Assembly (NCBI GenBank): GCA_003024175.1
Contig: MDYQ01000207.1
Coordinates: 298,930-362,929 of the forward strand
Reading direction: 5' to 3'
Length of the DNA: 64,000 nucleotides
Source of the DNA: Planoprotostelium fungivorum
Lineage: Eukaryota > Evosea > Variosea > Cavosteliida > Cavosteliaceae
Below are positions 1 to 14,900 of this stretch, one piece after another. Made by a program: the position numbers and the translations under genes. The notes under the pieces are model-generated. The model saw only the letters and a program-made list of their open reading frames with translations. It did not search any database and was not told the DNA's origin. Each line of letters begins with the position of its first letter. Positions within the stretch are counted from its first letter, which is position 1.

Positions 1-245
1 TCAGGTACGGAGAGACCCTGTGAGATGGTCACTTTATGATGGACGAACATCATGATACACACCGCTCTTTCCAGTTGAGGGACATGTAAGTCGGGGGAAT
101 GCACCATCTCAGCTGTTGTGATCAGATGCATTCCCCTCTGAACGAGTGCTTCATTCAGAGATTCTCTGTGTAACACTGCCTGTTTCGATGTGATGGCGGG
201 AGCACTGCGATGTCGCTCAGGTTTGAAGATCCACGCGGACCACAT
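1..245 (-). CDS. Unrecognised protein, 3' part cut off by window edge
   Basis: The minus strand is open from an ATG at 243-245 to the window edge: 81 codons with no stop and no obvious intron. The peptide begins MWSAWIFKPERHR and contains ALVQRGMHLITTAEMVH. I do not recognise a family, and there is no signal peptide or membrane segment in the visible part. The 175 bp to the start of the plus-strand gene at 421 would serve as a shared divergent promoter. The frame is supported only by its length and even composition, so the start could be wrong. Confidence 0.45.
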   Translation of the reverse strand, partial: MWSAWIFKPERHRSAPAITSKQAVLHRESLNEALVQRGMHLITTAEMVHSPDLHVPQLERAVCIMMFVHHKVTISQGLSVP

Positions 246-420
246 GGAACTGTTTATTGTGGAACAGCCTGAAACCAGGCTTCACTAGTCTCTGTAGAGG
301 TTTCGGGAGATGATGTGATGTCGCGAACGAGGCGGATTAGCGCATTCCTTCGCATTCGCGAGGTCTAGACGCTTAATTTTCCGGAAAAATCCGACACACC
401 AAACACATAATCACAACGCG

Positions 421-683
421 ATGTTGATGCTGTTCTTCGTCTTTCTTCTATTGGTATCGATTGTATTCGGTTACCAATATAGAGAGAAGATTTCAAGTTT
501 CATACGAGGGACGACGGCTGAAGATGCAATCCAGACGCGTGACTTAGAGACGGCCATTGGTGAGCGAGCATCAAAATGAACGATACAATTGACATGTTAG
601 AACGAGACGAAGGGCGGAGAATCTCTATTATCAATTATCAGAGCGAGCTCGATGCGAAAATCGCCACGATGTCTAGGAAGTGA
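421..683 (+). CDS. Small single-pass membrane or secreted protein, 73 aa
   Basis: Two exons, 421-559 and 601-683, are joined across a 41-nt GTGAGC...TTAG intron in phase 1, giving a 73-residue protein. It starts MLMLFFVFLLLVSIVFGYQY, a strongly hydrophobic N-terminal helix that is either a signal anchor or a signal peptide. The remaining 50 or so residues are charged, with a likely amphipathic helix near the C-terminus (INYQSELDAKIATM). The layout suggests a small organelle or ER membrane protein with a cytosolic or lumenal helical tail. No family recognised. Support comes from the canonical splice sites, exact phase match and stop at 681-683. Too short for a simple ORF list. Confidence 0.5.
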
Positions 684-1157
684 TGTCACCTCAATCCTCA
701 CCTGCCTGTATAACTCTCATCCTCCAAGTTACGATCTCCAGGGCATGGAGGAGGTGTCGAATCCCTGTCTGAGGACAAGCCGTCTAACAATAAAGGCAGG
801 CGGTTCTTCTGTGAAACGACTGTTGACTCGGGTGTGTCGCTCGATGAGGGATATCGTCTGTCATCGTTCAGCGCGCAATGAAGTCCGCTCACACTTATCT
901 TCTCTCCGCTTACACCTGATCTTACTCTAGAAACATCGGGCAGCATGCCGTGATAAGAAGTAGCATAGAGCAGCAAAACGGAGAAGGGTGGCTGTGTCTT
1001 TGTCCTGCATACGCGTGTTGTCGACAGGATTTGCGGTATGACAGTACAACCGAAATGTTTCCGCTCTTTTCTGTGAGGATCCGTGCTCGTTCAGCGTGAT
1101 GTCAAACGTCAGGTCCTTGTAAGGGAAGAGCAACATTTCCAAAGGCAGGCGCATCCG
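684..1157 (+). other. Intergenic region, presumed promoter of the receptor kinase
   Basis: No gene could be supported here. There are open frames of about 90 codons on both strands, but they overlap each other, lack recognisable motifs and have no convincing start or splice context. The stretch probably holds the 3' end of the small gene before it and the promoter and 5' UTR of the receptor kinase after it. Confidence 0.4.
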
Positions 1158-4100
1158 ATGATGTTCGATAGAAGGTGGACGATTCTGTGCCTCTTCTGCC
1201 TGTTCTTGTCGGGGGTTTCTGCACAAGTAGGTGCATGCCCCGGTGGAACGTGTGCAGATGCGTCCATGTGTTGCTCACAATATGGATAGTGAGGAGCAGA
1301 TTATATATTCTGATAGATTCTGAGGCATTTTAGTTGTGGAAATACCTCAGAGTATTGTGGAACGGGCTGCCAATCTGGACCATGTTCTAAACTGAATACG
1401 ACCGCCCTCTGTTCGCCCACCAATAATTACTGTACTCCTGCTTATGGAGGTTACTGTTGCTCTAGCGCGGGATAGTGAGCGATGATGAACTCCATTAATC
1501 GATCTCTAAATCCATCCAGCTGTGGTTCTACGGACGCCTACTGTGGTGCTGGCTGTCAGGCCGGATGTAGTGGAACGGCTGCGACCTCCACAATGAGCTC
1601 TACCACCACAAGGACCACCTCGGTAGCCCCCACGTCTACCAATTCGGTGACTCCAACGTCTACCAACTCTACAGGCCAAGATACCAGTGCTTCGAATGAT
1701 TGCAGAATCAATCTCAATTACTGCAGCGGTAGTATCTCGGGGCCATGCTGCTCGACGAGCGGATTGTGAGCCCTGCGACATCTGCACATCCATCTGAGAA
1801 CATGCAGTTGTGGAAGCACCGATGATTACTGCCTGGGAAAAAACTGCTTCAGCGGCTGCTCAGCTGGACCGACTCCTCCAATCTTTACCACCACACCGAG
1901 TCCAAACGTCAACAACAGGACTTATCTCACCTACATCCCCTCTTCTCTTGGCACGAGGTCGTCCCCTTGTCTAATCACACCCGAATGTGAGATCCATCAC
2001 CTCGCATTCGATCTCATTTGGACTTGACATGGTCTGAAACGAAGACAGGGGTGGATCCCGCCTTGTATACTCACATCGTGGTGCCAAGCGCGATAGTCAA
2101 CCCCTCCTCATTTGCAGTCTCACCCACCAACAATGACGATCAGTCGAGCAATGGAAGCCCCAGCCATTACGATTTGATCTACAACATGAAGCAGCACAAT
2201 CCGAATCTGAAGACACTCGTGAGTTTCATCACATCACTCGTCATCTGACGCCCTCCAGATTGGCATTGGCCCAGTAGATGGTTTTGTCGAGGTAGCTACC
2301 AGTGATGGTATCTTTACTACTATGGTTTCTAATCCCACGAACTTGAAGACGTTCGCATACAACGCCGTGCGTTTTGCCAGATCGTAAGAGGAGAAATTAT
2401 TTTAAATCGTTTTAATCTTTTCCAGGCACAAATTTGACGGTATAGACATCTGGTGGACGGTCCACTCGCCGTCGATCAACACGACGAATCCGGATTACAA
2501 GTTATACTCTGCATTGCGTAGCGCCATTAAGAATGAGAGCCTCTCTGCCGGGGTGAGATGAGATGATGTCCATCACCGCACGACTCATCATGGACAGATG
2601 AGCAGACTGCTTCTCACGACCACCCAACAATTTAGCACGGGTGAAGTCCAATCCTATTGGTCCGCTCCTTCTGCTCAGTATCGTGAGTTCAAAGATTAAA
2701 TTCGATTTCAAATTGATATGAAACGGTCAAAATTGGGACGCTCACGCTTTGCAGTGGATCTTTTCTCTCTCCACACGTACGAAATCAACGGAGGAGGCTA
2801 CAGCTCCATGTCTGATGGAAGCTCCAACTGGAACGGCACTTGGAGTAAAGGTCTCACCTCACTCGTGGGCATCCAGGCTTATGCGAAACAAGGCTTTCCC
2901 TCGAACAAGGTCCTCCATCGTGATCACGATCATCATCATCACGATCATCATCATCACGATCATCATATCATCATCACGATCATCTCATCTGACGATCATC
3001 TCAGATGACGTTGTCCATCTACACTTATGGTCTCAGCTTCACGATCATCACGAAAGGACTCGACCCGAGCCAATACTCCAGCTTGGGAAATCCAAACAAC
3101 GTCAGCGCCCACCAGTACGTCGGTGCCTGTCTACCGACTTCCACCGGAAAATTAACGCAGAGCGACATCATCACGTTCGCTACGTCGGGATCCACGAAGA
3201 CACTGTGGGACACGAAGACTTCCACCCCATTCGGTGAACGCTCCGTACGTACCGTACGTACTGACCCCCTCAGTCGTCTCGAACGATGGAGTCACCCTCG
3301 TCTCTTTCGAGAATCAGAGACTGGCTGACATCAAGATTGATTACGCCATCGTAAACGGTTACGCTGGTATCTCACTGTGGGTGCCAGACAGATTTTCCGC
3401 TCTGCAAGACCACGGCTCCAGCCGTGTCCTGGGAACAGAGACGAGGCTGAGCGTCTTAGCTCAGTACCCTCCCTCGGGCGGTGCGGTAGATTTCACCGAA
3501 ATTTCGATTGAAATTTCGCGTAGGTACCATCAAGATGCAGGCTTCTTCCGCTTCTTACGTGTCTGGTGTGACTTCCTTTACGTTCAATACGTCTTGGACT
3601 AGTTACGCCCTGCCGCTCACTTACGTCTTCTCTTACTCCCCCACCAACTCCGCTGATGACGTCATCACTTTCTCTTCCGGCTCCAGCTCCACGTCGGGTT
3701 GCATCGTCATGGTAACGTCGAATCCCTCGGTGGTCGTTACCGTTACGGCAACCGATGCCAATCAGAGGAGCGCGAGTCTATCTGTCCCCATCGGAATATC
3801 TCAGCCCACCGTCGCTCTCTCTACCTCCGACCTGGCGGCCAACCTTCAGGTGAGAAATTTCCGCGAAATTTCACGGAAATATCTGACGCTTCCAGTGTGG
3901 TACCGTCAGCACGAATCCCTCTTCGGCGAGTGGTTACATGCAGGGTCTCACGTTTCTCCTCGGTCAGAATTCCACGAACACAGTGGACCGCACGAAGATA
4001 ACCGATCAACTGGTCAGCGTGCTACAGAACACTTCTACTCAAGTCATCACGAGCGTCGACGCCACGAGCAGGGCACAAATCATTGGAACTCTGTGCACCG

Positions 4101-6490
4101 ACAGCAGCTGCCCCGCCCTCTCTTCTCTCCTCACTACCTTTGCCAACATGATGAACAGTAACCAGGGACAGGTGCGTAACGTAACGTAATCGAACGTGAC
4201 ACGGTCCAGAGTTACGACGCGAATTTCGCTCGAGCCGCCGTCAGTGCATTGTCCTCTATGATTACGGCTTCTACATCTTCTCGAAAGAGAGCCGCACAGA
4301 ACGTAAACGAGATCCGCAGCGTGAGCCACCGTTACATCACGTGACGTCATCCACTGACGACGTCGACAGATTGTCGACTTGATCATGAACAATCTACTGA
4401 ACAACTTGACCAGTTTCTCGCCCGTAACAGCATCTGGAAAGACCATCGGAATCAGTGTGATGACTACACTCAACGCACAGCAAGACGTAACGATGTCTTC
4501 CGGTCAAGCTTCTGCTGTCATCCCGGTGGCAGTGTTATCTGGAAGCGGTACGTACCTCACCCCACCCGTTACGCACCAGTTCTTACGTACGTAGGTCAAC
4601 GCAGTATCCGTTACGTCTATTACTCGGACGGTTCTTCCTCGAATTCTTCCGCTTCGATCACTTCGCTGAGCGTCAGCCCTGGTACGTACAGCGATCTACA
4701 ATCAGCCATTCAGATCAATTTCCCCACGCCCAGTGCTTCCGGTCCGTTCTTTTGTGCCTCGAGACAGACCTACACCGACTCGTTCGCCTCGGATTCTGGC
4801 TGTACGATCGTAACCAGTAGCAACGGAGTCTCTTGCCGCTGCAATCACATGACAGAGTACACGGTCTACCAGGCCGGGCCCAATTCCGGGAACACGAATT
4901 CTCCGGGAAATTTCCCCCTCTGGGCCATCGCAGTCATCGTCGTGGCCGCCGTTCTCATCATCGCGATCATCATCATCGTGATCGTCATGAAGATGAGAGG
5001 AGGAAAGAAGAAGGTTCCTCAGAACAACGTGGGCATGGTGGTCGCTCCCATCAACCCCAACAGCATGTCACCTCTTCAAGCCATCTCGAACATCTCTTCC
5101 AAGCACAAATTGCAGATGAACGAGTTCAGTGACCTCAGGCAAATCGGACAAGGTGCATTCGGAGTCGTATTCAGGTGAAATTTCGATTTCTCACATCTGA
5201 TCATCTCGTGCTGGAGGGGACGTGTATTGGCGCGTTGTAGATGGAGGGACTGATGAGGAGACAGTGCAAAGTGGAGAGAATTGCACGTTGCGATGAAGCA
5301 GTTGAAGAACATTCACGCTTCAGAGAAGGAGCTGAAAGAATTTGTCGCCGAAGTCGAAATCTTGCAGGTGAAGTGGAGGATGAAGAGAGAAACTGATGAA
5401 ATTTCAGCAATTGAGACCACATCCCAATGTCATCTTGTTCATCGGGATGTGCCTGCCTCCCGATCCCATCTCTATCGTCACGTGAGTCCCAAATTTCCAG
5501 TCCCAAATTTCAACTCTTAACCCCCGCAGTGAGTACTGCGAGTGTGGTTCCATGTACAGTTATCTGAGAACGTACAACTGTGATTTAGACCTCAAATATT
5601 CCTTTGTCACCGGTATTGCCAGGGGAATGCTCCATCTACACAAGGAGAACGTGAGATGCTCCATCGATTCGTGGAGCTGACAGATCTGTAGATCATTCAC
5701 AGAGATCTTGCCGTACGTAACATCCTCCTGACTGGCTCTCTGGTGCGTCGCTCTTGTACAACACGAATTGACTCGTTGTAGATTCCAAAAGTCTCCGATT
5801 TCGGATTGTCCAGGACGAACACAGAGCAGGACGGTGCCGCACAGACCCAGACGGACGTTGGACCCAGTGAGAATTTGATCATTTATTCGAATTGATTTGA
5901 ATTTATTCTCCGTGTCCTCACCTTCTCACAGTCAAGTGGATGAGTCCTGAGGCCATTCTCAACCGAGAATATTCCAGGAAATCTGATGTCTGGTCTTTCG
6001 GGTAAATCTCGTCGAAATTACACCTCGGCTGATGCGTCTACAGAGTTGTAGTCTGGGAGATTCTGACCGTATCTGAGCCGTTCCCTGGCATCAATCCAGT
6101 GGAAGCCGCCATCATGATCATCCAACAGGGTGTACGACCCGAAATGCCCCAGGACACTCCAGAGGACCTCTACTCCATCATGAACAGTGAGTTCCATCAC
6201 ATCATCGCATCATCGCATCATCTCGATCATGATGAACGTCGACTCATCGTGTGACAGACTGCTGGGCCTTCGATCCCGCCTACCGCCCGGATTTCTCTCA
6301 GATCATACAGACTCTGGTGCCTGAGAACAAGCCCAACAGCTCCACTGCCAACTCTCCCACTCACTCTCCTATGCACTCTCCTCCTGGTACAGGACAAGAC
6401 CGATACGCCAACGGTGGCAACCACAGCAACCAGAGTGCAAAGAAGTACACCGTGGAAACTCACTACAGCTCCATCAGGGGTCAGGAATAG
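1158..6490 (+). CDS. Receptor tyrosine kinase with chitin-binding, inactive GH18 and GPS ectodomain
   Basis: About 24 exons give a protein of roughly 1,380 residues. Order: signal peptide (1-22); two hevein-type CBM18 modules (about 26-115, eight-cysteine spacing with CCSQYGYCG and [10 protein letters not shown]); Ser/Thr-rich linker; a third CBM18 (about 165-205, [15 protein letters not shown]); GH18 fold (about 215-565); REJ/GAIN-like region; GPS motif [12 protein letters not shown]; one transmembrane helix (about 1002-1026, DNA 4917-4990); tyrosine kinase (about 1060-1330). The kinase is intact: GQGAFGVVF loop, VAMKQL lysine, [18 protein letters not shown]. The GH18 catalytic motif is not: [10 protein letters not shown] where DxxDxDWE is expected, so both the last Asp and the Glu are lost. 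It probably binds chitin or chito-oligomers at the surface and signals through tyrosine phosphorylation. All exons keep frame from signal peptide to stop, which argues against two separate genes. Start is the first ATG before the signal peptide (a second follows at 1161). Confidence 0.8.
2910..3004 (+). repeat. GATCAT-rich simple repeat inside a receptor kinase intron
   Basis: A 95-nt intron (GTCCTCC...CATCTCAG) is mostly repeated GATCAT/CATCATCAC units. It must be spliced at GTCC for the GH18 frame to continue (GFPSNK joined to MTLSIYTYG). Read through, it would give a meaningless His/Asp run. Confidence 0.6.
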
Positions 6491-6732
6491 AGGAAGATGA
6501 GCCTTGTAACAAATAGAATAAAAAGATAGGAAGTCGTCACAGTTGTGGGATGAAAAACATCGATTGAAGAGGTTGGATTCGGACTTCTTCTTCTCTTGTT
6601 TGTGCGTTGTGATGAACAGGAGGACATAATTAAAATTAAAACCATACTAGGATGGATTTATTTCTGGGACATTGAATTGCAAATCAAAAAGCATGACCAC
6701 CGTTCAAAACACATCCTAAAGAGGCTCTTCCG

Positions 6733-8921
6733 ATGATCGATACATTTGGACAACAAGATGCGAATCTCATCCTCTTATTCTCCTACCTCGATGTACAGTC
6801 ATTATGTCGAATATCACGAACGTGCAGAAGATGGCACCACCTCATTACGAGTTCTGATTTTCTGTGGGAGGCACGAGCTCGCAGTCTGAACATGGAAGAT
6901 TACAAATATGAAGATCAGACTTGGCTAGAATGCATCCGTGACCTCTATAGCTCTCAACTGCTGGATAGTAGAGAGCCAGAGTGTTCACCTCTGGTATGTA
7001 TCGATCCGTTATCTGCAACATGATTGAGATAACGCAGCGCACCTGCGTCTCTTGTGTCCGTCAAGTACACGGTCTAAAGAAGAGACCCACGAATACGATT
7101 CAGCTGAGAGATGACGAAACATCCAGAACATCTTTTGGTACCAACTACGAAGATGCAATCGTCACGGGTGATGATCTTCATTCCCTCAGCTGCTCAATTT
7201 CTTTGTTGACTCTTTACAGAGTCATCTATAGAACCTGAAAATAATAATCAGCCTCTCGATCAGCAGCCAGAGAAGAAGTTTTGTACCGTCGATTACATTG
7301 TGTGCCATCATCGTGCAAAGATGTTCTGCACATCTTGTGGACATCCAGAAAGGTGAGGCGATGTCATCTTTGGTCCATACTCAAGAGATGTACGTGATGC
7401 ACATGAATCCGCTCACCATCATGTAGAGATCATTGCACACATCTTTTGTATAGAGAAGCACAATTCAACCATTACACACAAGCTCTCCATCACCGTAATT
7501 TCGAGGAGATGATCCGAAGGACATCAGCCATCGCTCGAGTGTCTAAAGGTGATCTCATCATCATCATCGTCAACTCATCATCATGTCACCGTGATGCCAA
7601 AATTGACAAAAAACAAAGGTGCATTGCGTCTACAAGAGAAGAATCTCCTATCCTCTTCCTTTTACCTCTACGTGAACAGCCTCCGTTCAGATTGGATCAC
7701 AGCGAGGGAGAAGAAGAAACAAGGAAGTGAGAGGAGAGATCAATTGTCCAGAGACATCGTTCGGGTCAGCGTCACACTCTTGAAGTTATTGGACGAGAAG
7801 GTATTTCCGTACGCGTATCTAGATACTATATTATGTTGGATTCGATTGTGAGTGTATCATTTCATCATCGCGTTTGATATCATCGTTGCATCACCATCGC
7901 CTCTCATCACATGCAACATGACGATCATGGACGTGATCATCGTGGATCTGATGTGGAGTTAGGAAGATGAGATTTCAAGAATTCATCATGCTCGTCACAC
8001 AACCGAATTATGTGGAAGATCCATCCATCCATTCGGACATTTATTCAGACATACGAAAGGTGACCCTCGTAGAATTACAACACTTGAGAATTGTATTAGA
8101 AGAGGTGAGACACGTTCATCATCATCACACTTCTCATCATCACATTTGTCATCATCCCACGATCACATCGTGATCATGATCGACATGCTAGCTGATGACA
8201 CATCGAGGTGAACACACACCACGAGATATTAGACATCGTAGATCAGACCCAATGGATTCACCCCGCAGTGACGAACGGCCACGTCATCCTACCCAACGAT
8301 CCCATTCTTCTCCGGGCCGCCGTTGCGTACGGTACTTACTGTGACGAAGTATAACGTCATCACACGTCATCGACTCATCTGGTCAGGTCATTCACAATCC
8401 AATGAGATCGTGGAGGATCATGACTACAGCCCTATCAGAAGCAGAAGAGACAGAAGACATGGATGGTTCCTGTCGATTGTCCTTACTGAGAGACAAGATA
8501 CAAGCGGTATGGTTTCATTTGAGTGAAAACTGATGGAATCAGGTAGAGAAGAGAGGGGTTTTGAATGCGATGAGACCCAGCAGTGTAGTCAAGCAGGGAT
8601 ACCTGAGAAGCAAGACGGAAGAGGAGGAAGAACTGTCTCTACCCCTTTGGATCGTGTTCGGTTACTGGGACCACCACACGTGCCTCTATGTCTATCACGA
8701 CGCACAGGTGACGTCTCTCCATTATCAGATCTCATCTCATGATGACGCAGTCGGAGAGAGCGAACCATGTGAAGGTGATGATGGAGGGAAGACAGAGAAA
8801 CATCCGGTGCGAAGGTGTTCGGTTCAAGATAGAAGGAGAGGAGAGGTGGTGGTACTGTGCAAATGCAAAGGAGGCTGAAGAGTGGCATCGAATGATACGA
8901 AATACGCCCAGCAGGAGATAA
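6733..8921 (+). CDS. F-box and PH domain protein
   Basis: A multi-exon gene of about 560 codons. The N-terminus is an F-box (about residues 8-50: LILLFSYLDVQSLCRISRTCRRWHHL), which in this family docks on Skp1 in SCF ubiquitin ligases. The C-terminal 100 or so residues form a pleckstrin homology domain: VKQGYLRSK opening, then ERWWYCANAKEAEEWHRMI, with the conserved Trp of the final helix. Between them is a helical region with no family I can name, plus a small Cys/His cluster (CHHRAKMFCTSCGH) that may bind zinc. The pairing suggests a substrate receptor recruited to a phosphoinositide-bearing membrane; that is inference. Its stop lies 50 bp from the stop of the convergent neighbour. Confidence 0.65.
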
Positions 8922-8970
8922 ATGAAGAGTCTATCTTTCTTTATGTACACATGTAAATCGACTATTTGTC

Positions 8971-11801
8971 TTATTCCCTGGCGTTGAGTTTCTTCTTCTT
9001 CTCTTCTAACGCTGCAGCCTGCTGAATCGTGTTCTGTTCTTCTTTGAGATAATTCGTGTGGTCCTTATTGAAATCGTTAAACTCTTGTACCACCGAAGAA
9101 GAGATCTGATCTCTCTTTTTCTCCCAATTCTATCTCGTCGTTATTATCTCACAACGCATTCCTCTCACACCTTTCTCATGCCCGAGATAGCCGTCTTGCG
9201 GCTGATTTCGTTCTCGTTTTCGATCATAGCGTCAGGAGAGCTAGAAGGTGGTGTTCCACCTGACTTCTGATTGTATTGGTAGACGAGCAGATACTCCTAT
9301 TCGTTTTCAATCGGCTGCATCAGTTCATTCGTGTGACTCACGGGCAAGATGTGGGCGGGCTTCAGCATGAGGTATTCTCTCTGTCGCTTGATGTAGATGC
9401 AATCGTAATCTCGTAAGTCTTGTGGCTTTAAGTCTTCTGGTCGGCTGATCGTCTTCATCTATTGGGTGTGAATGGATGCTGATGAAGTTGGTGATCACAT
9501 TTCGGATCAACACGCGGCACCAAAAGAGGAAGTGGAAACTGTAAGGCTTATCTTTCAGATTATTCTTATCGGTCTCCAGCGTGCTGTGAACGGAGAACGC
9601 CTGAGGCAATCGTGGTGACGATTTCTCCTTCAGTAGTTGCCTCGTCTTAAATTCGTCTGAATTGCTGATACTCAATCAGAATGATACAGATAAGAGGTCT
9701 CACCGACTGATGGACCAGAATGTGTCGAACAGACGCTCTAAGATGTTATCCGGCAGACTCGGATGAAAACCGAACGTACTGATCCATTGGATGTTTGCCC
9801 TCTGTGTGTTACAGAAGAGATATTTCGTCTCTACTTTCGGTTCTTTCTTTAATTCTCCCTCGAATAGTTGGTCTAAGATGTCGTTATCTACCTGCATATC
9901 TGGTCAACTCGTTTGAAATTACGAATCATCTTTCACCTTGAATGCTTCCAATAATTTGATGGAGCCATACGGTGTGTCCGTAAAATAATCCGATTTCATT
10001 GATTTCCACAGAGCCATCTTGCACTGGGTTTGTGATCAGAATCAACTTCTTACTGACATCTCACGTTATTCCAATGCATAGTTTTCGGTTCGAGCCTTCT
10101 CAACATGACTCTGCCTGTGGTCTCCCACTCCAAAAGTGCCGCAAACTTGTTCAATTTGAAGATAAATTTGGATAACGCGATCTGCTTGCTGTACTTGAGG
10201 TCCAATAGCCTGAGGTAATGCATGTGGACTTCTCTCTCTTCTTCTAACGTTTGGAGGTGGTGCAACACCAGGGCGCTGATCTCTTCTTCCATGTCTAAAT
10301 TCCGAGACCAGAACCATTCTTCGTAGCTGTTCATCAAATAATCCAATCTCTGTAACTCTTGTCCCAGGAGAACATTCTACACATCATCAGCCGATCGCGA
10401 TCGCGATGATGTTCACTCACCTTCATCTCACTTTTCTTCGACTTCAAAGCTTCGATCTTGAGATCTCTCAACTTTCTCGTCAGCTTGTTCGCCCTGTTCA
10501 CGTCTCTCATCTGTCATCACGTTGACCTTCGATCGTCCATCATTCATCACCTCCTGCTGATTCTCCGCCACGATGCGGGCGCGCGTCATGTGGCTGGTGA
10601 GAAACTGAAAGAGAGGACCAGAAGATGTGACGTTACGGTCTAATATCTGTGTCCAATCGACGGCCTTGCGAAAATAGAGCTCGGCATCCATGATGGATTC
10701 AAATTCGGGAGAGTGGTTGGCTCTCTCTGAAGATGCAATCAACGTGATTGAAATGATGACACACAACGAAGAAGGTGAGACTCACCTTTCATTTTGAATA
10801 ACAACGGAACGATGCTCTTATTCGAAGCGAATTTGGAACTCTCAACGGGGGTGGAGCGTAAGTTGGTCAACTTACGTCTGTGAATGGCCTCAGATAATTC
10901 ATCCATCCGGTGGTGCAGTCGTGGCGATTTATAATCCCAACTGTCGTCGGCTGAGTCTTCTTCTTCTTCCTGTGAAGAATACTGGAGCTCTTAGACATCG
11001 TCAGCTTTCCTTGACCCGCGAACACCTCGAATTCACCTTTCTTGGCTGATGTACCCACTTGAATGTCCACGAGTGTGTTGTTCTTGTGTAACGCTGCCGT
11101 GAGGGCTCTGATACCTTGCTCGTTGATGTCACAACCTTCGAGATAGAGTCCTCTCAGTGACTTGTTCGCTTCGAAGCATCTTTGATGATCAGACGGGTGA
11201 TGTAGGACGCACACACCTGCTGAGGTGCTCGGCTCCTATGTTTCCTAGCCTGGGGTTGAATGAAAGATCTAGAAAGCGAAGTGACGTGTTGTTCCTCAAC
11301 GAATGCGACAGATGCTCTAAGATGATGATGTTAGGGTGGGGAAATAATTGTCTTCTCACCTGCACCCTCGGCCGTGATGTCGTTCCTGGCTAATGAGAGA
11401 TACTCCATCCTCTGGCTATTCTCCAAGATCTTCGCTGCCGTCTTCGCACTCTGTCTTCGTCAACCTCGACGATGCAGATATACCATCGCGAGCCGATTCA
11501 CCTCATCTCCCAATTGAACATTGTAAAGGTCCAGCCTCCAAAGCTTCGGAAGTTGTCTCAGCGGCTCCAACAGGAGGGCCGTCACATTATCACCCATGAT
11601 CACTTCTCTGACGCTGAGCTCTTCGATCTTTGAATTAATTCCAGCCGCCGCAGATACCGCTGCTCCGTCTTCTTCATCTAAGATTGACTCGATGCCATCA
11701 CCGAATAGAAAGACGTAGGGAGCATCACGAGACAGCTTCTCGAGGAATTTCTCTTTCGTCCATGGTTGTCTTTTAGAAGGTAGTTCATGTGTTGAGCCCA
11801 T
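8971..11801 (-). CDS. Leucine-rich-repeat and coiled-coil protein
   Basis: Several minus-strand exons join in frame. The N-terminal half carries RNase-inhibitor-type leucine-rich repeats: LPKLWRLDLYNVQLGDE, MEYLSLARNDITAEGA, LRFLDLSFNPRLGNIGAEHL and LRGLYLEGCDINEQGIRAL. The C-terminal half is charged and helical (EREVHMHYLRLLDLKYSKQ; last exon ending AAALEEKKKKLNARE before TAA at 8971-8973). The repeats are usually a protein-binding scaffold; partner and pathway are unknown. The start is uncertain. I used the in-frame ATG at 11799-11801 (MGSTHELPSK), but an open minus-strand frame at 11802-11938 could be an upstream exon. It diverges from the WW/SH3 gene and shares a short promoter with it. 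Confidence 0.6.
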
Positions 11802-11969
11802 GTGGCAGCTGACGGGTCCGTGGAGAGAATATTTGTTGTAGTTGAGCCGCGCATTTCGATTGGTGATCTCAAACGAGAGAGGAGGTCAAAGAGGGCAGAG
11901 AATCTGTTGGCAATCGGCCCACACACATCCGGTCCCACAAGAGACTATTCTGTCATACATTGAGATGAT

Positions 11970-14900
11970 ATGAATCGTCAATACAGGCTTTCGAGTGAGT
12001 CACCCCTCCTACCATCTCTTCTCTCCTCCTTGAGTATAGTCCATCCCATCTCATTCGAAGCAGTGAGTCCGACTTCTGAAGGGTCTCCCACCCGATCGTC
12101 CAATGAGAGGAGAGGCACCGTCGCTGCGACCCACAGTTTCAATTTGAAGCAGCTCACACCTGTTAATTCCGGATCAAGCCCCATCATGGTCTCTGGGGTG
12201 CTGCTTCCATCCTCGACGCCCATCAAACATTACTGATCGGTCACAGACGAGAGCACAGTCCCTCCATCAGAGGAGTCACAGCGTGGGTGGGCTCGATTTC
12301 TCCGACATTCCAGGTGGGTTCACAATCCAAAAGGATCTATTCCATCCTCTTCATCTGAACACCCTCTTCAGGTGAGAGAAAGTCCATGGGTGTCATCCTT
12401 CCATCGGCACCCCATATCACCGACATCGACACCACCTCTGAATCGGGCTCTCCAATCATGGCTTCACCCGCATCGACTCTCAGAGGTTATCACAGCAAGA
12501 TCATGACACCTCTTCCACCCGGTTGGGAGGTCGCATACAACTCGAGTGAGCTCATCGTGAAAAGGTTTGAGACTGACATCAAACAGAGGGAAGAGCTTAC
12601 TTTATCGATCACAACACACAGAGAACTACCTTTGAGGACCCCAGACTGACTTACACCGAGGAAGAAGAGGAGGTCGGTTTCCAGCCCGATTTTTCTCCGA
12701 TCATTCTGACCCATCCAGGAACGAGCACCCCACGAGCTTCCAATGGACGATTCCGACACCTTCGAGGTCTCTCGGAATACTACAACGGGCCTGAGAATGA
12801 CGGAGCAAGATAAGAGAAAGAACAAAGACGCAACTTTTCTCACGCTCAAAGCTCAACGAAGCGAGTTGAGACGGAGCCACAAGACAAATCGGTGAATATT
12901 CTCACACTCTTCCTGGAAATTTCTCGTCGCTTTTCACGGAAATTTCTGACGCGGACAGCCTGGCGGGATTGAAGCAGAAGGAACAGAGAGAGAAGACACT
13001 CTTATCCAAGCACGGAGTCGATTTAAAGACATTTGAATCTGGACATCAAGCGGATGCGAAGCAGCAGCTGAAAGAGCTCGATCTGAAACAGAAGGAATAT
13101 CACAAGAAGATGAAGGTGAGACGCGAGTTGTAGACGAGATTTTGAGAGTTATAGATCATATGGAAACACGAGACGAAGCAAGAAGAAGCGAGGCTGTCTG
13201 TTTCTGCCGAGTTTGTATCCAAAGACGTTCTATCGAAACAGGTGAGATTTTCTCGTCTACAACGTGCCATCTTCTCATCAGACGTCTTCTATTTTCATTT
13301 TTATCTCTTCTTCTCAACGATGACAGGCCCTCCTTGTTCGTACGGAGAAGGAGAGGAATTTTTTGGATGGACTTGGATTAGAACAGATGGAGCTGTCACA
13401 TTCCATCGCGTTGACCATCAAGAAATTGGTTGTAGAAGAGAAGATGAGGCAGCTGAGAGAGTGGATCGAAACGGACGTGGACAGTATCGTCAAGCTGCAC
13501 CACCAAGACAGGTTTGAAATTTGAATGTGGCGGGAATGACGGTTGCAGGGAGAGTCAGAGGAAGTACCACGAGTACACCATCAAGATGATGCAGCGCTCG
13601 CACGTCGTCGACAGGTTTGAAATTTGAATCCAGGAGATGGCGGGAAATAACGGTGAACAGAGTCGAAGTGGAGGAGCAACACAAGAAAGAGATGGAACAC
13701 TTGCAGGCTGCTCTCTCTCAACAGACAAAGATCAGGTGACCCCTACTTCCATCCGTTATTCCTAGAAATTTCTTCGGAATTTCTACGTAAAATTCTGAGA
13801 ACGTAATTGACACACTGTAGGACGAAAGAGTTCAAGTTCCAAGAGAAGCAGAGGATCAAAGACCAAGAGAGAGACCTCAAGCTTCAAATGAAGACGGCAC
13901 GCACAATCAACAAGAAGGACGTTCAACAGCAGCAGAAGGTGGACGACCTCTCATCCATCGTAGATTGAAATCTTGAATAGGAAACGAACGACAACTTGTG
14001 GAAACAATTTCAATCGGGGCTGGTCCAACAGCAGAGAGACGAAGAGAGTAAGCTGCTGGCTCGACAGAAAGAACAATTCGAAGAGATGAAAACCGGTCAA
14101 TATCAGGTGATTTATTTCTCCATCTACAACCCGCCATTTCCACGCGTTGTAGATTGATCGTCTCACTCCCTTTCAGTTTGAGCAGAAGAAGATAGAGGAA
14201 TTTATGAAATACGATTTAGACTCGATCGAATTATTTTCTCAGAGGCTGCAAGATCAAATCGAAAAGTCAAGAAGGGTGGCACAAGACATGCTCTTGGGAG
14301 AATACGAGAAGATCATTTCCGTTCCGCAGTCGCAGTTTTTAGAGCTATCGCAGAGACGAGAGACGGTCAAGGATGAATTGAAGGCGTTGGTATCAAATCA
14401 TTGCAGTAAATTGTTATCCCAGCACCAGAAAGAAGTGAGTGACAACCATTCAATTTTCCACATTCATTCTCTTCGCATGATACAAAGCACACGATTACAC
14501 ATGTATAGATTGAGAATGATTCTATGATCAAGATCACATCATAAACGAATCTTATTTTCCTCTGAAATATCTTTAGGTGGACAGAGACAACAACGCGACC
14601 ATCAAGAGGGAGAGGAAGACACTGAGAGAGAAGAGGAGACTGATGAAAGATCCAGCAGAAGTAGAGAAGGAGATCGAAGCCATGATCACGGAGATGGACA
14701 CACTCAAGCAGAGAAAGATATTCGATCAGAGAAGATGGGAGTGCAACATCAAACTGTACTCCATCTCCAGGGTAACCACACGAGACGAGATGAAAAACTG
14801 ATGAAATGTCAGGGATATGCCCACGAATTATCACTGTTGGAGTACAGGAAGAAATTGTTGTTGAACAAACAGCAACAGGAATTGGACGTTTTAGTGGAAA

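Follow-up and report, generated by a model that had tools for sequence, protein, structure and literature searches.

A candidate chitin-reporting receptor tyrosine kinase with a degenerate GH18 domain in the amoeba Planoprotostelium fungivorum

How does a fungus-eating amoeba recognize its prey? To our knowledge this is an open question, and a gene of Planoprotostelium fungivorum gives it a molecular form. The stretch of DNA that we analyzed (the window) covers 64,000 nucleotides of contig MDYQ01000207.1 in assembly GCA_003024175.1 (positions 298,930 to 362,929, forward strand). At 1158..6490 on its plus strand lies a gene whose predicted product combines hevein-type chitin-binding modules (CBM18), a chitinase-like domain (GH18), a membrane helix and a tyrosine kinase. 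Judging from the sequence, we think it fairly probable that this protein is a single-pass receptor tyrosine kinase of P. fungivorum, with an ectodomain that reports chitin by tyrosine phosphorylation. PROFUN, the prefix of its gene names, is listed as Protostelium aurantium var. fungivorum (PMC10445921; for this and all other papers cited, statements refer to the excerpts available). For the mammalian lectin that serves as melanin receptor, no counterpart is on record in Amoebozoa, which may use receptors yet to be identified, according to the excerpt of PMC7251208.

The preliminary description of this stretch had called the gene frame-continuous. A splicing model that was built by hand, and fixed before any paralogue was seen, resolves it into 24 exons and 23 introns encoding one frame of 1,381 residues, which opens with the ATG at 1158 and has its sole stop codon at its end, 6490. 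All 23 introns have GT-AG ends and measure 38-95 nucleotides (nt), with donors reading GTG or GTA in 22 of them and GTCCTC in one, and with CAG or TAG as acceptor throughout. Retention of an intron brings in a stop codon in 18 cases and a frameshift in the remaining five. The claim of a single gene therefore stands, while its continuity exists only after splicing. The coordinates 1158-6490 and the order of domains were borne out by the 24-exon model, Pfam searches and hydropathy.

Full-architecture genes occur in three copies, the other two lying on different contigs (C44 and C75), and the comparison bears on whether the gene might be an artefact. The window gene and the C44 paralogue have 16 of the 23 introns at the same place and in the same phase, from residue 44 to residue 1305; these shared introns run from the first chitin-binding module into the kinase, and random placement yields a mean of 0.1 and a maximum of 2 in 2000 draws. 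With the C75 copy, 14 introns coincide in place and phase and 16 fall within four columns. A single exon (4595-5174) holds the GPS motif, the membrane helix and the start of the kinase, and the only AATAAA within 1001-7000 lies behind the stop codon, at 6517. The rival view, that two adjacent genes, one for a kinase and one for a secreted protein resembling chitinases, were wrongly joined, or that the assembly is chimeric, can point to the seven of 23 introns that are absent from C44. Because the other 16 match from CBM18 to kinase, we regard split genes or misassembly as very unlikely, giving them next to no credence, and rejected them on the conserved introns, the common exon and the architecture of the paralogues. 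Separate genes for the CBM18/GH18 part and the kinase, an outcome which the preliminary description had allowed for, were not borne out.

The C44 paralogue is PROFUN_10402 (P0002 in our searches). It has the same part order with five CBM18 stretches by Pfam, six by our own reading, and is labeled a chitinase in one source. Its deposited start (residues 1-66) may be too early, since the stretch from Met67 onward (MRWSTVFLVFCFF), not flagged by the hydropathy scan, resembles a signal peptide. The C75 gene, read from DNA with PROFUN_10402 as guide, comprises a signal-peptide-like start upstream, five Pfam CBM18 stretches, GH18, stalk, helix and kinase. Identity between the window protein and its paralogues is 71-72% in the kinase, 49-50% in the N-terminal CBM18 part and 36-40% in the GH18 domain and stalk. 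A conserved kinase beside a diverged GH18 domain and stalk is expected if signaling is fixed and the parts facing the ligand diverge.

The kinase domain (5125..6319, residues 1073-1325) matches PF07714 with 257.2 bits over residues 1077-1324 (Pfam scores are for the full protein unless stated otherwise). It retains the catalytic lysine K1100 and the HRD and DFG motifs, together with HRDLAxRN and P-x-K-W in the forms HRDLAVRN (catalytic loop, 5698..5721 in the spliced model) and PIKWMSPE, motifs which are of the tyrosine-kinase type. The best 60 of 2,723 PDB matches are all tyrosine kinases, including EGFR, a Src/Abl ancestor, ABL1, FGFR1-4 and Eph, and the spliced model continues into a C-terminal tail with tyrosines (6320..6487). 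The complete tyrosine kinase noted earlier is thus confirmed by profile, motifs and structural matches. Exon-level searches of the genome gave 79 SH2 and 43 tyrosine-phosphatase matches, which suggests that phosphotyrosine can be both recognized and removed in this cell.

At the other end of the protein, hydropathy places a signal peptide at residues 7-28; we assign it to residues 1-22 (1158..1223), the cleavage site being our own reading. It is followed by three stretches matching PF00187 (64.0 bits, cut-off 27.8), in agreement with the three hevein-type modules first noticed by eye. They lie at 1230..1385, 1410..1568 and 1701..1859, each interrupted by an intron (1289-1333, 1475-1519 and 1766-1807, respectively).

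The GH18 domain (1914..3461, residues 209-592) scores 124.0 bits against PF00704 over an envelope of residues 229-565, far above the cut-off of 29.6. Its closest solved relative is the chitinase 5wvf (E 9e-29), its PDB matches also include Ym1 and chitinase-3-like proteins, and the domain retains the Trp close to the barrel's end. The catalytic motif DxxDxDxE, which reads DGxDxDWE in GH18 chitinases, is degenerate: at 2436..2459 the window protein has DGIDIWWT, with the last Asp replaced by Trp and the Glu by Thr. The corresponding motifs are DGIDIFWS in C44, DGIDIYWE in C75 and DGIDIFWT in a shorter gene on contig C299, so that each of the four GH18 domains found linked to a kinase has an aromatic residue in place of the catalytic Asp. 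A genome scan returned 15 GH18 loci at 12 places, the window being one of them; DGxDxD is intact at nine of the 11 others (eight directly, one more through a gene model), and the remaining two (L065 and L070) have no match to the motif pattern. A retained fold with a lost motif fits the pattern of a lectin derived from a chitinase, and because the motif is degenerate the domain would be expected to grip its ligand, not to digest it. The earlier wording, "GH18 fold" and "chitinase-like", thus holds for the fold, to which the loss of the catalytic motif has to be added. Were the domain instead still an active, membrane-tethered chitinase whose activity the kinase reports, its high score of 124 bits and the catalytic Glu present in C75 would be readily understood. 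The last Asp and the Glu are, however, replaced by Trp and Thr in the window protein, by Phe and Ser in C44 and by Phe and Thr in C299, and with these replacements we rejected an active chitinase as highly improbable.

Whether the protein is a receptor at all depends on 57 nt. Hydropathy finds a single membrane helix at residues 998-1034 (4915..4998), followed by basic residues and kept in C44 and C75; the signal peptide and the one helix of the preliminary description were both recovered in this way. This combination marks a receptor provided that the stretch 4951..5007 is coding, as it probably is. The deposited protein PROFUN_01038 (P0001; 1,362 residues, annotated as hypothetical protein) is identical to ours except for 19 missing helix residues, this stretch having been spliced out, and as deposited it shows no helix besides the signal peptide by hydropathy. 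If the deposited model is correct, or represents a true isoform, most of the helix is removed and the protein would not be a receptor of the usual kind. Such an intron would have GT-AG ends (it begins GTTCTC and ends AAG) and preserve the frame, and the conserved intron at 2910-3004 likewise has a poor donor, GTCCTC. However, on a donor matrix built from the 46 introns of the window gene and the C44 paralogue, GTTCTC scores -3.8, below the lowest of the 46 (GTCCTC, -2.2), and an AAG acceptor is used by one of these 46 introns. The C44 and C75 genes have no intron at this place, their helix being uninterrupted, and a signal peptide joined to a kinase without a helix is an implausible product. 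We therefore consider the helix-less form unlikely and the deposited intron likely to be an annotation error, one that conceals the protein's receptor character and explains how such a receptor could be missed.

Between the GH18 domain and the membrane stands a stalk of about 400 residues. Its region 3477..3798 matches, by tblastn, the C-terminal part of the REJ domain of a relative on contig C225; that REJ domain was matched with 30.5 bits and aligns over this region, and the window protein itself has no Pfam match to REJ. Position and a four-member alignment point to a GAIN-like region at 3826..4872 ending in a GPS motif (4753..4869), which has the Cys pattern with four cysteines and H-[LM]-[ST] within CNHMT, the predicted cleavage falling between Met and Thr (HMT at 4846-4854). 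In the excised region of 391 residues GPS just passes its Pfam cut-off (22.7 against 22.5 bits), and a match at E up to 1 occurs in all four family members. When the GPS profile is instead built from 13 other sequences in this genome, it gives 26.5 bits for the window protein, compared with 5.7 for the best of 300 shuffles, and 18.8, 13.6 and 10.4 bits for PROFUN_10402, C225 and C75. Of the GPS/GAIN-like region originally described, the GPS part is upheld by these two scores and the GAIN fold finds no sequence support in the PDB.

GPS motifs are frequent in this genome, with at least 150 matches in 36.9 Mb. Counting by eye in the lists of genome matches, we find at least eight of the 150 followed on their own strand by PF07714, at a distance of up to 0.8 kb in seven cases and of 2.0 kb in one. 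The genome scan for PF07714 scored 134 of 1388 candidates, and not even the kinase of the window gene appears in its list; its counts are accordingly lower bounds. L019 and L083 are examples of loci where the GPS precedes a helix and then a domain of the kinase family, and in L019 the GPS with the helix behind it can be read directly. These many sites, some of them before kinase domains, bear on self-cleaving receptors outside animals.

Two further genes share parts of this architecture. The gene on C299 (L084, C299:1001-7000) is shorter and carries its degenerate GH18 and a tyrosine-kinase-family domain, without CBM18 or GPS. The sequence between them is uncertain, a helix being present in one of two gene models, and the GH18 domain is probably joined to the kinase through a membrane helix. 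The C225 relative combines REJ with the same stalk, helix and kinase and has no GH18 match in the genome scan or in Pfam; upstream of its REJ region the model is unreliable, the guide used for it having been unsuitable. In a GH18 tree of nine of the 12 sequences, the three full receptors group with support 99/98 and the placement of C299, on a long branch, is unsure (73/92). C66, C134b and the C44 chitinase were excluded from this tree, their models being poor outside the motif, and stop signs were deleted from the C134a and C65c models.

Beside PROFUN_10402 (C44:15268-21290, minus strand; L082) lies a GH18 gene with an intact DGIDIDWE (C44:22487-23248, plus strand; L061), the two diverging on opposite strands. 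In this chitinase gene the Glu of the motif comes after an intron, which sits in the same Trp codon as in the C44 and C75 receptors. The shared intron is a hint that the GH18 part of the receptors may have come from a chitinase like this neighbor. Elsewhere in the assembly, pairs of matches with equal score and length (C12:261202 and C13:73998; C65:45315 and C65:16637) suggest recent copies or uncollapsed haplotypes.

What could such a protein do? A lectin-type receptor reporting chitin contact is the most likely reading, ligand and activity being what we infer from the domains. The CBM18 modules, and perhaps the dead GH18 cleft, would bind chitin or N-acetylglucosamine (GlcNAc) chains accessible on fungal walls. 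One polymer could hold several receptors along its length and thereby cluster them, and the clustered kinases would phosphorylate each other and the tail, whereupon SH2 proteins could dock and uptake or attack begin. The stalk is predicted to cut itself at HM/T, the chitin-gripping part staying held non-covalently, so that the cleaved ectodomain may be displaced or come off under tension from bound chitin. A bolder version, which we hold to be rather doubtful, is a force-sensitive prey receptor: the amoeba would pull on the chitin-held ectodomain, the part cut at the GAIN/GPS region would shift or leave, and the stalk would switch the kinase on, with the small clade of receptors, diverging in their ectodomains, serving to distinguish fungal prey.

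The ligand might also be GlcNAc-bearing material that does not come from fungal prey: bacterial peptidoglycan, glycans of the amoeba itself, or the wall of its cysts, spores or stalks. In favor of this alternative, chitin is not the sole GlcNAc polymer to which hevein-type modules and GH18-like lectins can bind. The genome has no match to Chitin_synth_2, which is not proof but favors foreign chitin with prey as its likelier source, and speaks against the amoeba's own wall; a search with PF01644 was uninformative, as it found no match anywhere, and carries no weight. P. aurantium, moreover, is described as a specialized mycophagous predator; its diet comprises yeasts, hyphae and conidia at the swelling stage, and chitin and glucan become exposed on germination (PMC7251208). 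A non-prey ligand therefore appears to us a real but lesser possibility. What is upheld of the sensor proposed in the preliminary description is a receptor-type tyrosine kinase with chitin-binding modules and a chitinase-like domain, its cyst-wall option having become less likely for want of a Chitin_synth_2 match.

Several observations count against a chitin-reporting receptor and have to be set beside this reading. Modules 2 and 3 each presumably lack one of the aromatic residues that we take to be usual in hevein-type sites. The GH18 domain of C75 retains the catalytic Glu although its Asp is lost, and none of the 11 other GH18 places has a kinase in its 1.5-kb flanks, a weak test in which the window's own locus (L068) was negative as well. 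The deposited model goes without most of the membrane helix. The GPS is not listed in the full-length Pfam scan, nor at this locus in the genome scan; it is weak by Pfam and without the usual tryptophans, and with the own-genome profile the C75 score falls under the HMMER inclusion line. Searching the PDB with a profile of the stalk returned a single match (E 1.4), which is not a GAIN protein. Finally, the nearest known design, tobacco CHRK1, is tied to development and cytokinin balance besides pathogen response (PMC10573068), so chitin sensing is not assured, and these functions in development also lend something to a non-prey ligand.

Around the gene, Rfam has no match in positions 1-12000 of the window and NCBIfam yields only matches far below its cut-offs. 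The downstream neighbor opens with an F-box domain (6733-6993, 39.9 bits).

The preliminary description knew of no receptor of this kind. We found no description in the literature of CBM18, GH18, GPS and a tyrosine kinase combined. Each of three protein searches scored about 7,990 candidates, those sharing most words, and their negatives extend no further than these; in the first, GH18 or CBM18 with a kinase occurred in PROFUN_01038 and PROFUN_10402 only, among the 63 matches as listed, three others of which carry CBM18 without a kinase. A search with the stalk region matched PROFUN_01038 alone, as did a profile search spanning GH18 to the kinase start of the three paralogues, PROFUN_10402 lying beyond its length limit. 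The combination is what remains of the claim of novelty, the design of an inactive GH18 domain with a kinase being known already from tobacco CHRK1 (PMC10573068). That ectodomain is said to be without chitinase activity for want of the Glu, and CHRK1 resides at the plasma membrane and is induced by a fungal pathogen and a virus (PMC10573068). A review counts about 91 plant sequences in which a GH18 domain outside the cell is linked to a kinase inside it and, contrary to PMC10573068, calls the ectodomain predicted active (PMC5485988). The remark that plant chitin receptors use LysM domains therefore overlooked CHRK1, the plant GH18-kinases and the CBM18-kinases.

The window protein thus meets known systems at several points and departs from each. 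LysM receptors of plants (CERK1 type) couple chitin sensing to a kinase; the Pfam scan finds no LysM in the window protein, and we rejected a receptor of that type. Plant GH18 receptor kinases are of the receptor-like Ser/Thr type. The window protein shares their inactive GH18 ectodomain, membrane pass and kinase as a design only, its kinase being of the tyrosine type by motifs and PDB matches, without direct comparison with CHRK1. It has, moreover, CBM18 modules and a GPS stalk, neither of which is mentioned for the plant GH18-kinases in the excerpts of PMC10573068 and PMC5485988. Common descent with them seems unlikely to us. Also comparable are two CBM18-kinases, A0A176WS68 and A0A176WDS5, which we take to come from a liverwort. 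These have one or four CBM18 modules and a kinase, and the excerpt of PMC5485988 mentions no GH18 or GPS in them. The new elements are the host, the tyrosine type of the kinase, the GPS stalk and the presence of both chitin-binding parts in one protein.

Comparison with animals and amoebae places the remaining parts. Animal chitinase-like lectins bind rather than cut, and are soluble, secreted proteins without membrane part or kinase; in YKL-40/CHI3L1 and Ym1 the GH18 fold is kept and the catalytic residues are lost, as in the window GH18 domain. Kinases of Acanthamoeba (seven protein tyrosine kinases with predicted helices; PMC4053784) and Physarum (three; PMC4758236) share a membrane helix and a tyrosine kinase with the window protein, "chitin" and "GPS" being absent from the main text of the former paper and "GPS" from the text of the latter. 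With the window gene and its two full copies, the chitin sensing of prey has candidates that can be named. If that role is true, chitinases without catalytic activity have turned into sensors coupled to kinases not just in plants but in amoebae too, here with a tyrosine kinase in place of a plant-type one. In adhesion G protein-coupled receptors (GPCRs) and proteins of the polycystin-1 type the GPS stands right before the membrane, as it does in the window protein, and REJ is found in the C225 relative. Where such proteins have seven or more helices, seven in an adhesion GPCR, a single helix follows here and then a tyrosine kinase; should the force-sensitive version be true, a unicellular predator would have combined the principle of the adhesion GPCRs with a receptor tyrosine kinase.

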